51,121 nucleotides of DNA, taken from NCBI GenBank assembly GCA_035532035.1, contig DATKRS010000021.1, positions 1 to 51,121 on the forward strand. The letters are read 5' to 3'. The notes under the pieces are model-generated. The model did not search any database, was not told the DNA's origin, and was given only the letters and a program-made list of their open reading frames with translations. Below, piece after piece: positions 4,224 through 9,057 of the stretch. Numbering within the stretch: position 1 is the stretch's first letter; every line of letters starts with the position of its first letter. Source of the stretch: Candidatus Dormiibacterota bacterium. Its GTDB lineage: Bacteria > Vulcanimicrobiota > Vulcanimicrobiia > Vulcanimicrobiales > Vulcanimicrobiaceae. The position numbers and the translations under genes are program-made.

Positions 4224-4949
4224 ATGGGGGGAGCGTTCGCGCGCGTCGTCTACGTCGCGCGCACGGGAAGCACGAACGAGGATGCAGCCGAGCTGCTCGG
4301 CGACGACGCGGCACTCGGGATGACGATCGTTGCCGAAGAGCAGACCCGCGGCGTCGGGCGGAAAGGACGCTCGTGGACGGCGCCGGCGGGGAGCGCGTTG
4401 CTCTTCACCACGATCCTGCCGCGCGAGATCCCGACCGACGATCTCTGGATCGTGCCGTTCTGGGCGGCACTCTGTATCCGCGACGCACTCGCAGGCGCCG
4501 GCGTCGACGCGGCGCTGCACTGGCCGAACGATCTGCTCTTGAACGACAAGAAGCTCGCCGGCATTCTCTGCGCCTCGCGCATCCTTGGCAAGCGCGCGCG
4601 CGTCGCATGCGGCGTCGGCATCAACGTCTTTCGCGCGGCAGGCGCCGCGCTCGATCCGCCGCCCGCGTACTGCGACGACGTGGCCAACGTCGAACGCCCG
4701 GTATTGCTCGCGCGTATCTTGGAGCGATTCGGTGACGAGTTGCGACGGCTCGCGGATACGGGCGCGGTCGCGCGCCGATGGGAGGCCGCCGCGAACGTGC
4801 CAGGCCAGCGGTACCGGCTGCTGCTCGACGGAGAACGCGTGCCGTTCGAGGCGACGGCCGTGGCGCTCGCCGCCGGCGGCGGACTCGTCGTGGAGCGCGA
4901 CGGGCGGCAGGAGACCATCGCGCTTGCCGACGCGCGCTCGCTGCGCTAG
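4224..4949 (+). CDS. birA: biotin--[acetyl-CoA-carboxylase] ligase, catalytic domain only
   Basis: Attaches biotin to the carrier protein of acetyl-CoA carboxylase through biotinyl-AMP. The 241-residue protein has no N-terminal helix-turn-helix, so it is a monofunctional ligase and not a repressor. The biotinyl-AMP loop is GVGRKGRSW (about residues 43-51). The family motif KWPND appears as HWPND, followed by the conserved NDKKLAGIL. A C-terminal SH3-like domain follows (about residues 190-241). No ribosome-binding site is evident. A weak TTGCGA/GATAAG pair with a long 19-base spacer ends close to the ATG. Confidence 0.92.
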   Translation: MGGAFARVVYVARTGSTNEDAAELLGDDAALGMTIVAEEQTRGVGRKGRSWTAPAGSALLFTTILPREIPTDDLWIVPFWAALCIRDALAGAGVDAALHWPNDLLLNDKKLAGILCASRILGKRARVACGVGINVFRAAGAALDPPPAYCDDVANVERPVLLARILERFGDELRRLADTGAVARRWEAAANVPGQRYRLLLDGERVPFEATAVALAAGGGLVVERDGRQETIALADARSLR

Positions 4950-4953
4950 CGCG

Positions 4954-5169
4954 TCATTTCACGACGCCGCCGAGCACGATACCGGCCGTGCTGAGCGCCG
5001 ACGCCGCTTCGCTCTCCACCGCGCCGTCGATGGCAAGGCAAAGATTCGCTGTCGAGTCGACGTTGGCGGGCTTCGGGATCATCTTCGCAGCAACGCCGGC
5101 GTCCTTGAGCGCCTTCGTGGCGATCATTGCGTCGGTGTTGCTAGCGAAAACGAAGATGATCTCGGGCAT
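4954..5169 (-). CDS. DUF3343 family protein (putative Se/S carrier-like)
   Basis: This 71-residue protein begins MPEIIFVFASNTDAMIATKAL, the pattern of the small DUF3343 family, which covers about 70-80 residues. A family link to sulfur or selenium trafficking has been proposed, but the paired cysteines that would support it are absent; only one Cys is present. The second ATG (5169) was preferred over the one at 5175 because AAGGA lies five bases before it. It is the last gene of the operon starting at 8607 and follows the Cache sensor by a few bases. Any role in sensing is inferred from context only. Confidence 0.7.
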   Translation of the reverse strand: MPEIIFVFASNTDAMIATKALKDAGVAAKMIPKPANVDSTANLCLAIDGAVESEAASALSTAGIVLGGVVK

Positions 5170-5177
5170 CGACATCC

Positions 5178-6479
5178 TTATGGGCTCGACTCGCCCGTCA
5201 CGAGCTCGTTTAGCGTCGACGCCACCTCGTTGAGCTCTGCGACGCGTTCGACGGCATCGTGCATGCGGTTGGACATCTCTTGCGCCAGCGTTTCGATCAC
5301 GATCACGTCGCCGTGCAGCTCTGCGTTCAGCTTTTGCAGCTCGGCAACGCTTGCCGGAGCCTCGTCGCCCTTGGCCAGCTCCGCAATCAACTCGCCGCTT
5401 CGCTCCACCGCTCGCCGCGTCGCAGTCACGTGATCTCCGGATACCTCACTTCCGACGACCGTCACGCCCAGCTCCTTCGCGGTCTCGCGAACGCGCCGGC
5501 TGTTTTGCACGAGCGTCTTCGACAGCGCCTGCACGATGGGAACGGCGAGCGCGAGCACGAGTATTACCGCGAGCAGGCCCCACAGCACGAGCGTCCACGT
5601 CGTATGACCGATGATGTTCGTGATCCGTACCATCGGAATGCCGTACCACGACGCCCCGACGATCTGGTTCTGATCGGTCATCAACGGGTCGATGCGAGCG
5701 AGGTACGTCACGCCGCCCTCGGTGTCGCTTCCCACGTACGGTCGCCCCGTGCGAATGACGGCCGCCGTAGCCGGAACTTGGGCGTCGAGGTAGCGCGTGC
5801 CGTCCGGGGTTACGATCGAGCTCGAGACGATCGTGCCATCGTCGATCAATGCGATCGCGCCGCCGATCGCGCGCGTCGCTTCGTCGACCAGATCGTACGA
5901 GTGGTTGAGCACGAGGCCGCCGTAGAGCACGCCGATCGTGCGCTCTTGCGCGTCGCTGATCGGCGTCGCCGAAACGATCGCCAATCCGTCGTGCTGCACC
6001 CCCGCCTGCAGTGCCAATCCTTCGCTCTGCAGGAAGCCGGGTGAAAGGCGTGCGAGCGTGCTGAACGTCTCGCCGTTGAGCGCCCGTTGTACGAGCGGAT
6101 CGTTCGCAAGGGATCCGCCACTGCGCGCGTGCACGCGCGCGAGGACGTGGCCTTGGAGATCGACCGCAGTGAGAAACGAGAGGCCCGAGTTCTCTACGGT
6201 GTTCGAAAGATCGCCGGCGAGCTGCGCTCCGTTGTGGCCTTGCACCGCGATGCGCACGGCATCGCTCGCGGCTTCCTGCGCGACGAGCAGCTGGATTTGC
6301 TTCTTGCGCGACGCCACGTACCCGCCGAAGGCGCTCGCTTCGCTCGTTACCTCCGTGCGCCCGAGCGAGAAGAGGTCGTGAGCCAGCACCGAGCGAGCGG
6401 CGATCAAGCTGCTGACGAAGATGAGCACGACCGCACCGACGATCGCCCCCAGCAGGCGCGTGCGCAGGCTGAACTTCAT
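5178..6479 (-). CDS. Cache-type membrane sensor lacking a signalling domain
   Basis: This 433-residue protein has an N-terminal membrane helix (about 7-29), a large extracytoplasmic region of the double-Cache type (about 30-290; [18 protein letters not shown] and [18 protein letters not shown] are typical strands), a second membrane helix (about 295-317), and a cytoplasmic helical tail of about 110 residues. The tail is predicted coiled coil and has no HAMP-plus-signalling hairpin, kinase or GGDEF output. Its ATG overlaps the stop of the upstream chemoreceptor as ATGA. The simplest reading is that it supplies the ligand-binding half of a receptor whose signalling half is the neighbouring gene. 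The ligand is unknown. Confidence 0.82.
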
Positions 6480-8071
6480 GCGTGTTCTCCCTTTCCGTTC
6501 TCGCTGACCTTGAAGCGGTGCAGATGCTCGTCGATCCGGTCGGCTAACGCGTGCATCTGTTCGATCGATCCGAGCATCCGCTGCGATGCGTCCGTCACCT
6601 CGCGGCTGACGTACGTCAGCACTTCCACCGAGGATGCGTTCTTCTGCGAGATCGATGAGATGTCTGAAAATGCCTGATTGACGCCGTCGGATTGACGCGT
6701 CATCGACTGCGTCGCATTGAGATTCAGCGTCACGGACTTCGCGATCTCTCCGATCGAATGGATCACGAGCTGCGAGTTCGCGCTCATGGCGCGGGCGACC
6801 GCGCTGATCTGACCGATTTGCTCGTTGGCGGCGATCACCGCGTTGACGATCTCTCCGAGCGCCCCGGACGCCGAGTTGGTGCCGGTGACGCCCGCTTCGA
6901 CTCGCTCCATCAGGCGTTGCATCGCCTCGACGACGTCCCCGATGACACTCTGCGTTCCCGCGATGTGTTGTGCGATCTCCTTCGTCGCCGTGACGCTCCC
7001 GTCGGCAAGCTTGCGAATTTCGTTTGCGACGACGGCGAAGCCGCGCCCGTGCTCTCCGGCGCGCGCCGCCTCGATTGCGGCGTTGAGCGCGAGCAGATTC
7101 GTCTGCTCCGCAATCCGATCGATGACTTTGACGATGTCGCCGATCTGCTCTGAGTTCGTGCCGAGCTGACGGATGTCGCCGGCGAGATCCTGGATCGTCG
7201 AGGCGATCGTGCCCATACCGGCGTTGATCGTTTCGATCGCCGTTCCCCCACGCTCCGCCGTGCGTGAGGTCGCCTTCGAAATCGTCGATAGTGCGTCGAC
7301 CTGCACGGTGACCTGCTCGATCGAGCTCGCCATGTTCTCCACCGCCATCGCCGTCTCGTCGAGGCTGCGGGTTTGTTCTTCGGCTGCGGCGGCGATCGAG
7401 GAGATCGCCTCGCCGAGCGCGAGCACTTTGCGCGTCGCCTCTTCGACGATGCGCTGCTGCTCGGCGATGCCCTCGTCGAGCTGCTCGTGGGCGACCGTCG
7501 CGCCTCCGAGCACGGCGAGCGTCGTCGAGGCGGTGCCGCGCAGCTCGGAGCCCGCGCCGGCGAGCTCGGCGGCGTGCCCGGAAAGCTGCGCGAGAAAATC
7601 ACGCATGCCGCCGATCAACCGGTTCAGCGTCTGCACCAGGTCCTGCAGCGCAGGCTCGGCGGCCGCAATGCTCGTCGTGAAGTCGCCCTGGTACACGTCG
7701 TGCAGACCGTCCACGACCGCAATCAGCCCGGGCGTGCGAGGAGTTGGAAGCGCAGCGAGTTCCTTCTCCGGCTGCGCGGCGTCGCGAAACAGCAGGCTCA
7801 CGACGCTCCCAGCGACGAGAACCGGCAGCACCGCGAGCTCCGCGCTCGCGCTGCCGCGCAGCAACCCGGCAGCCAGGCCAGCGATCGCCGCCGCGAGCGT
7901 CGCGAGCAAGCCGTACGGCGAGCCGAGAAACGCCGCCGCCAGGCCGGCAACCGCTGGGACGAGTGCCGCTCCCGGCTCGCCGGTCCAGAACCAGCCGAGT
8001 GCGGCGGCGGTGAGAGCAGCGAGCGCGCCAAGGCCGCCCCGGACGGACGGCGCCGTGCTCGCGCGGACCAT
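6476..8071 (-). CDS. methyl-accepting chemotaxis protein without a sensor domain
   Basis: The 531-residue protein has about four hydrophobic N-terminal helices (roughly residues 12-95) with almost no loop between them, then a short linker and a long helical signalling domain. The hairpin tip that contacts CheA/CheW is clear at about 311-355 ([18 protein letters not shown] then [15 protein letters not shown]). No periplasmic ligand domain is present. The ATG shares a base with the stop of the protease gene (TAATG), and the stop overlaps the Cache sensor's ATG. No cheA, cheW, cheR or cheB lies in the window, so its pathway must be completed elsewhere. Confidence 0.92.
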
Positions 8072-8607
8072 TACCTGTGGGCGCGCCCGACGCGCCGGTC
8101 GCAGGTTTCGCAGAAGTACGACGTCATGTTATCCGTCTCGAAAATCGAGTTCGCGTAATACATGCCGCATCGCGCGTTGAAACAATGCTTCAAGCCGAAG
8201 AGATGCCCCAGCTCGTGCACGCACTCCTTGAGCGTTCGCTGGAACAGAACGTTCGGGTCTCGCTCTTCACCATAGAACTCCGGCCGAAGCCGGTGGAGCG
8301 ACACGACCGCGAGCGACTGCGCCTCGTCTGCGTCGCCGAAGATGAAGCGATGCGACGTCTTATAGAGGTCGAACTCGGTGAGGACGAGGAGCGCGCCGTC
8401 CTGCTCGGGGTACGCGCCCAAGACTTTCGCCGTCAGCGTCGTGAGGAAGAGCTGGCCGCGAGTAGCGTTCAGCGCGCTGCGCGAGAGAGCGAGGGTCCTC
8501 TCCACCTGCGCGCGCGCCAGGAAGCGTTCTTCGAGGCAGAGCGCGAGACGATCGAGAAAGGCGCCGTCGACGGCATTGACCGGAACGATGCGAATCTTCG
8601 ATTCCAT
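8071..8607 (-). CDS. amzA: archaemetzincin-type zinc metalloprotease
   Basis: The 178-residue protein carries the extended archaemetzincin signature. [11 protein letters not shown] gives the three zinc ligands His131, His135 and His141 with catalytic Glu132. It is followed at once by Cys142, Cys147 and Met149, then Cys166-x-x-Cys169 as a second, structural zinc site. Size and lack of a signal peptide match the family, which is common in archaea and scattered in bacteria, with no established physiological substrate. It is the first gene of an overlapping operon with a split chemoreceptor, an association I do not recognise. It is divergent from acpS. Confidence 0.9.
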
Positions 8608-8670: not shown

Positions 8671-9057
8671 ATGATCCTCGGCATCGGCCTAGACCTCGCG
8701 GAGGTGGCGCGCTACCGCTTCGACGATCGCGCCCTCGCGTGGTTCGGCCGAAAGATCTATACCGACGAAGAGATGGCCTACGCGCTGCGCAAGCGTAACG
8801 TCGCGGAACGACTCGCGGGCTTCTTCGCGGCGAAGGAAGCCACGCGCAAAGCGTTCGGTCATGCAATCCCCTGGCGGCGCATCGGCGTCACGCACGAGCG
8901 AAGCGGAAAACCTAGCATACGCCTTACCGGTGGGGCGGAGTCTCTCGTTGCCGCGCGCGGCATCGACAGGATACACCTCACCATCACGCACACGCCGGTG
9001 ACGGCGGCTGCCGTCGTCGTGCTCGAAGGGCCGCCCAAGCCATGCTCTACCTCTTAA
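8671..9057 (+). CDS. acpS: holo-[acyl-carrier-protein] synthase
   Basis: Transfers 4'-phosphopantetheine from CoA to apo-ACP. The 128-residue protein shows the Mg-binding Asp8 in MILGIGLDLAEV and the FFAAKEATRKAFG motif with Glu56, as in the trimeric AcpS group. The ATG at 8671 gives the exact family N terminus; longer in-frame extensions run antisense to the protease gene. No strong ribosome-binding site precedes it. The 3' end overlaps nnr by 16 bases, an arrangement also common in other bacteria. Confidence 0.94.
   Translation: MILGIGLDLAEVARYRFDDRALAWFGRKIYTDEEMAYALRKRNVAERLAGFFAAKEATRKAFGHAIPWRRIGVTHERSGKPSIRLTGGAESLVAARGIDRIHLTITHTPVTAAAVVVLEGPPKPCSTS

Follow-up and report, generated by a model that had tools for sequence, protein, structure and literature searches.

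Do four neighboring genes of a little-known soil bacterium encode a single chemoreceptor, and does the protease gene among them belong to it? The genes lie at positions 4954–8607 of a window of 51,121 nucleotides (contig DATKRS010000021.1, the whole stretch of DNA analyzed) from a Candidatus Eremiobacterota genome of 2.25 Mb and 96% completeness. They follow one another on the minus strand, on which all features of the window described below lie unless the plus strand is named, in the order archaemetzincin, methyl-accepting chemotaxis protein (MCP), Cache protein, and DUF3343 protein. A preliminary description of the window had listed a protease, an MCP without a ligand domain, a Cache protein without a signaling domain, and a DUF3343 protein as a set, and all four open reading frames were confirmed, with Pfam matches that agree with this list. 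We consider it probable that the operon encodes a split chemoreceptor made up of a Cache sensor, an MCP signaler, and a DUF3343 accessory protein, with archaemetzincin merely a neighbor.

Putative sensor and signaler are encoded by separate, overlapping genes

The signaling subunit is an MCP of 531 amino acids (6476–8071) that is recognized by its MCPsignal domain (E=3e-42), and a Pfam profile search of the whole protein revealed no second convincing domain. The MCPsignal domain itself (6737–7282) includes the tip that binds CheA and CheW, whose residues are intact and invariant (residues 301–380 have a mean identity of 88%). The N-terminal membrane region (7757–8071) comprises 3–4 helices within a hydrophobic first 100 residues and is the least conserved part of the protein, with 32% mean pairwise identity. 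The four membrane helices given in the preliminary description are approximate only: the N terminus is indeed hydrophobic, but three segments pass the hydropathy threshold, the first of them weakly, and 2 to 4 are found among homologues. Because this region is the least conserved and varies in helix number, it appears more likely to serve as an anchor and as a surface that receives the signal than as a specific binding pocket.

The adjacent gene (5178–6479) encodes the sensor subunit, a 433-amino acid protein organized as transmembrane helix, Cache domain, transmembrane helix, and helical tail, with no output domain (sCache_3_3, E=1e-12, together with a structure model and Foldseek). Its transmembrane helices span residues 9–27 and 298–316 and enclose a periplasmic Cache region (residues 31–290; 5610–6389), which was assigned by Pfam sCache_3_3 and by Foldseek, while dCache_1 stayed below its cut-off. 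Foldseek matches of the model are ligand domains, from chemoreceptors as well as from sensor kinases (TlpA, CtaA, Tlp3, DctB, and CitA), among them CitA 1p0z with a TM-score of 0.79 over the target, and a profile search with the Cache protein leads to the chemoreceptor ligand domains 8py1 and 8py0. Profile searches of residues 319–433, which follow the second transmembrane helix, found no kinase, GGDEF, or other output domain. These residues form a conserved cytoplasmic tail (5181–5525; KELGV ... DVxVIxTLxxEM) that is predicted, with low confidence, to be a helical hairpin. Its mean identity is 58–61% versus 55% for the sensor domain, and the motifs VG-x-EVS-x-D and D-x-x-V-x-x-TL are near-invariant. 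Such strong conservation of the tail on a sensor that is headless, that is, without an output domain, would be expected if the tail contacts a partner. By eye the tail had also seemed a plausible shortened MCP signaling domain, a candidate that we rejected with a non-significant profile comparison (probability 2%).

The two halves of the putative receptor are distributed over two chains: MCPsignal occurs in one open reading frame only and Cache in the other only, and the MCP half possesses a membrane anchor and a signaling domain without a sensory domain. At their junction, the MCP stop and the Cache start overlap by 4 nt (ATGA, 6476–6479), and co-transcription is predicted. The preliminary description had joined all four genes by overlaps of the TAATG and ATGA type. 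Both of these are present as stated, the former as a 1-nt overlap at 8071 between archaemetzincin and MCP (8069–8073), whose tight spacing is found mostly within the window's genus, but the joint between Cache and DUF3343 is a 2-nt gap (TAAGGATG) with no overlap. A scan for a sigma-70-like promoter of the operon found none, about equally few being expected by chance.

The MCP–Cache–DUF3343 trio occurs with chemotaxis genes

Our survey covered 149 genomes of the phylum, 99 of them in the window's family, together with 37 related contigs located via the archaemetzincin gene. In a gene-neighborhood comparison, which the preliminary description had named as a check, the same order recurs in all 41 related genomes where it is testable. 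Archaemetzincin and Cache genes that share a contig lie within ~5 kb of each other in 41/41 genomes, by our reading of the match positions, and the two genes are on different contigs in four genomes. The exact 4-nt overlap of MCP and Cache is found in 62/62 loci with 37 distinct Cache sequences, some of these loci being one genome reached through two collections. Because the order recurs so consistently and the overlap is exact throughout, the arrangement is far beyond chance. Wherever a contig extends far enough, the flanking genes recur as well, acpS with nnrD at one end and birA with ndk at the opposite end, and between archaemetzincin and birA most loci hold either the whole trio of MCP, Cache, and DUF3343 or nothing. 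The exceptions are three loci with other or unassigned sequence (L035, L039, and L040) and L021, in which a decayed MCP stands alone beside archaemetzincin, with neither Cache nor DUF3343 (L021:6556-8289; the GRGF motif of the tip is lost). By position, L021 matches genome G060, whose CheA match is also weak.

The Cache protein is limited to the window's family, in which 45/99 genomes encode it; elsewhere in the 149 genomes, only an unrelated Cache kinase was found. Across the 99 family genomes, Cache and MCP occur together in 45, MCP alone in 14, and neither in 40, and no genome has Cache alone. For Cache and DUF3343, the counts are 44 with both, 1 with Cache only, 1 with DUF3343 only, and 53 with neither; for Cache and CheA, they are 41 with both, 4 with Cache only, 10 with CheA only, and 44 with neither. 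Counted by genus, the trio and CheA coincide in 19, CheA is present without the trio in 3, and both are absent from 16; no genus has the trio without CheA. Thus, the trio, unlike the protease, tracks chemotaxis, and MCP, Cache, and DUF3343 make up the conserved unit, to which the protease does not belong. A one-chain Cache–MCP ancestor was also sought within the phylum and none was found, the sole match outside the family being a Cache histidine kinase (G005); no relatives of the Cache protein were found on plasmid records.

The source genome has the machinery to receive a signal from the MCP. The che genes whose presence elsewhere in the genome the preliminary description had left to be checked were all located: contig C3 carries a cluster of CheA, CheW, a CheY-type regulator (assigned by eye), and CheC, and CheR and CheB, with a sigma factor, lie on contig C1. 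The genome encodes three MCPs, none of which has a Pfam ligand domain. In a neighboring family (f3), single MCPs are one-chain receptors inside a che operon (two genomes read). We also noted, in another locus (L045:4643-8663), a further MCP gene directly divergent from apparent ftsA and ftsZ.

The preliminary description held that sensor and signaler form one receptor in the membrane. Their pairing stands, with the overlap in every locus, an MCP in every Cache genome, and CheA in 19/19 trio genera, and from this pairing we infer that the two proteins bind each other. The invariance of the overlap, the absence from the family of any genome with a Cache gene but without an MCP, and the poor conservation of the MCP membrane region, which is unlike that of a specific sensor, argue at the same time against a different account, in which the two proteins are independent receptors that are merely co-transcribed, the MCP sensing by its own helices (e.g. 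the energy state) and the Cache protein signaling elsewhere or indirectly. That account can draw on the other two MCPs of the genome, which likewise have no recognized ligand domain, on the Cache tail, which is not homologous to MCP, and on the existence of headless sensors without a nearby MCP; we nevertheless consider it unlikely.

Several observations weigh against a split receptor. Four Cache genomes have no CheA, and although three of these are 61–88% complete, the fourth (G056) is 93% complete. The genomes are related, so that the p-values for co-occurrence are non-independent and optimistic; because the genus pattern shows the same despite this, we tie the trio, and not the protease, to chemotaxis. 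The single-chain model of the Cache protein is moderate (mean predicted local distance difference test score (pLDDT) 67), although much of its first 190 residues is near 90, and profile comparison detects no homology between the Cache tail and the MCP. A comparison of divergence rates, described below, fails to single out the MCP–Cache pair from housekeeping controls. Finally, no flagellin N-terminal domain was found in the source genome, so swimming, pilus movement, or another output are all possible. A FliO-like protein is encoded in the same genome.

Archaemetzincin is retained with or without the trio

The first gene of the operon (8071–8607) encodes an archaemetzincin (M54) of 178 amino acids, which is supported by Pfam (M54, E=2e-20) and by NCBIfam archmetzin (149 bits versus a cut-off of 145), and whose relatives in the PDB are 3lmc, 2x7m, 4axq, and 3zvs. 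The zinc and active-site motif HEXXHXXGXXHCX4CXMX16CXXC, the consensus described for archaemetzincins (PMC3427221), is intact here (8101–8217) and ends in CETC, and proteolytic activity is predicted. In this respect the window protease resembles AmzA (M54), with the full zinc motif and its extra cysteines, and nothing notable differs. Its synteny markers, recognized by family matches and by related loci, are on the plus strand: acpS, for holo-ACP synthase, lies upstream of archaemetzincin (8671–9057), and birA, for biotin-protein ligase, lies beyond the operon (4224–4949).

Is the protease part of the receptor? The preliminary description had suggested that it processes the receptor or is governed by it, and the proximity is real, since the trio adjoins archaemetzincin in 41/41 testable genomes and the protease and MCP genes overlap by 1 nt in the window. 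The distribution argues otherwise: archaemetzincin is present in 91/99 family genomes, including 36 without CheA or MCP, and, where loci were read, the acpS–birA–ndk block houses it whether or not the trio is present. The distance between the archaemetzincin and MCP genes is variable, ranging from an overlap up to several hundred bases and exceeding 1 kb in two loci, with a maximum of more than 2 kb. The relative divergence rate of archaemetzincin is also equal in both contexts (0.65 with the trio versus 0.69 without it). In a first mirror-tree run, the partial rate correlation between archaemetzincin and Cache was 0.74, which would favor a link between them, but after further housekeeping genes were added, unrelated pairs reached partial correlations of 0.65–0.79. 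Because unrelated pairs correlate equally high, we regard the mirror-tree comparison as uninformative.

A further point in favor of a protease-coupled receptor is that, among the loci read, losses of the catalytic site number 5 in trio-less loci and 1 in a trio locus, the latter on a fragmentary contig. In four of the trio-less loci, the catalytic Glu is replaced by Asp (L091:2361-2900, L031, L032, and L035), and in the fifth (L095) the zinc site is lost. The pattern is only a curiosity because four of the five losses share the Glu-to-Asp change, which may be one event. On the strength of presence and absence, spacing, and rate, we reject the protease as a receptor part, and an archaemetzincin that processes, or is controlled by, the MCP or the Cache protein seems to us very unlikely.

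Receptor-linked DUF3343 proteins lack the Cys-Gly of the family

The last gene of the operon (4954–5175) encodes the DUF3343 protein, a putative accessory subunit of 73 amino acids that matches PF11823, now named Se_S_carrier (E=5e-9; 36.1 bits versus a gathering score of 25). The structure model is a confident small α/β plait of the predicted ferredoxin-like type (pLDDT 83), and its Foldseek neighbors are ACT- and PII-like, none of them below E 0.001. The DUF3343 family, in which a conserved Cys has been noted, has been proposed to serve in selenium/sulfur (Se/S) trafficking (PMC5322559). In comparison with canonical DUF3343 sequences, the window protein has Ala43-Asn44 (5044–5049) in place of Cys-Gly. 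Elsewhere in the phylum, canonical copies have the form P-R-...-Cys-Gly, in agreement with the conserved Cys of PMC5322559; in receptor-linked copies, Ala or Ser followed by Asn replaces Cys-Gly in 63/63, one of which fell outside the pattern used by our script and was assessed by eye. Within the window's family, all PF11823 proteins found belong to this Cys-less branch.

The profile match above the curated cut-off and the trafficking role proposed for the family (PMC5322559) could be taken to mean that DUF3343 is a Se/S carrier that rides along by chance or gives a redox signal. Beyond the uniform replacement of Cys-Gly, the genomes contradict this. SelD was not found above its cut-off in any of the 8 genomes of the window's genus, though 8/8 encode DUF3343, and in genus g5 the converse holds, with SelD present and the PF11823 protein absent. 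There is likewise no genomic link of these DUF3343 genes to SelD, YedF, or a Sec lyase, and their neighbors are sensors. Thus, the window protein shares with the Se_S_carrier family the profile match at 73 amino acids and differs in having no Cys-Gly, in standing beside headless sensors, and in being SelD-independent. With both Cys-Gly and SelD missing, we reject the carrier role, which we hold to be extremely improbable. As a separate observation, many selD genes in family f1 contain an in-frame TGA and may encode selenoproteins.

Other headless sensors precede DUF3343, and sensors are duplicated

In six genomes of genus g37 (L079:3687-4570; L080–L083 and L105), a Cys-Gly-less DUF3343 paralogue directly follows a 220-amino acid membrane protein with about six membrane helices, a short coiled coil, and no output domain, and no MCP gene is adjacent. 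The same six-helix domain is fused to an MCP signaling domain in one chain in G097 and G125 (L134:1426-3072 and L136:466-2118), forms the input half of MCPs annotated on plasmids of proteobacteria, and, in other family members (L137–L139), is joined to outputs of the kinase-like, histidine-kinase, and GGDEF-EAL types. Because both Cache and six-helix sensors precede it, DUF3343 follows an output-less sensor twice, with unrelated input domains. Headless six-helix sensors without an adjacent DUF3343 also exist (L133:1492-2148, L135:1486-2142, and L142:1477-2133), so DUF3343 is not obligatory for sensors of this kind.

The sensor half is also repeated at several loci. The Cache–DUF3343 pair is present in tandem in G057 (L085:2679-5249), where the locus is split over two contigs and the single MCP is on the contig that bears archaemetzincin, and G056 carries an additional Cache piece together with an additional DUF3343. 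Four genera have a further Cache paralogue, distantly related, in the interval from archaemetzincin to MCP; these second sensors are output-less and 31–35% identical (L029:6536-7906, L086:4759-6003, and L087:2741-3991). Sensors multiply, and the MCP stays single. Of note, we tentatively postulate that Cys-less DUF3343 is a dedicated coupling subunit through which headless sensors of both the Cache and the six-helix type, their output domain lost or never present, signal onto a shared MCP, which would make this a plug-in receptor whose sensors can be duplicated or exchanged around one constant signaler; we see this as a possibility short of an even chance.

A proposed mechanism and its relation to known receptors

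How would a split receptor of this kind work? In the mechanism that we propose, the Cache protein would span the membrane twice, with a small molecule as its periplasmic ligand, and binding of this ligand would shift the second membrane helix and, through it, the cytoplasmic helical tail. The 4-nt translational overlap would fix the ratio of MCP to Cache protein, and both would assemble in the membrane, where the helices or the tail of the sensor may act on the membrane helices of the MCP or on its membrane-proximal coiled coil. DUF3343 would bind the cytoplasmic side of the sensor as a coupling or stabilizing subunit. The MCP, anchored by its N-terminal helices, would then control CheA through CheW with the tip of its coiled coil, and archaemetzincin would be a neighbor with a role of its own.

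Two-protein chemoreceptors have already been described, namely the energy-taxis receptor CetA/CetB in Campylobacter jejuni (PMC2628428) and CetBA2 in Magnetospirillum gryphiswaldense (PMC12442639), and the bipartite principle is therefore known. As in the window, the sensor and the MCP of these systems are separate and adjacent, with overlapping genes in Magnetospirillum, and the MCP half has membrane helices and no ligand domain (PMC2628428, PMC12442639). The sensors differ: CetB is a small PAS protein of the cytoplasm that carries flavin adenine dinucleotide (FAD), whereas the sensor encoded in the window crosses the membrane twice, has its Cache domain in the periplasm, and ends in a long helical tail, and DUF3343 is a third conserved gene. 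With a membrane-spanning periplasmic sensor in place of a cytoplasmic protein of the FAD-PAS type, the window system falls outside the CetA/CetB family proper. One-chain Cache chemoreceptors (TlpA, CtaA, and Tlp3/CcmL) share with it a ligand domain of the Cache type that is flanked by a membrane helix on each side and differ in that the signaler here is encoded by another gene. A separate receptor protein also signals to an MCP-type transducer in sensory rhodopsin/Htr and in BasB/BasT of Halobacterium, the sensor folds being unrelated, and we know of no DUF3343 partner in either system.

In the literature searched, nothing beyond CetBA2 and a one-chain receptor surfaced as a candidate for a split Cache receptor, and, judged by title and abstract, none of the DUF3343 papers there was about chemoreceptors. 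The statement that this set was unknown from described systems thus holds for the form with a periplasmic sensor and DUF3343, of which the papers searched contained no example, but not for the bipartite principle.

Transmembrane signaling by chemoreceptors is usually studied in one chain, in which sensor and signaler are inseparable. If the split receptor is real, a separate periplasmic sensor and signaler would permit direct testing of the coupling step. Taking the protease out of the receptor avoids a misleading annotation. The split receptor would also place the Cys-less DUF3343 branch in a functional context for the first time, the family having been guessed until now to be a selenium/sulfur carrier.

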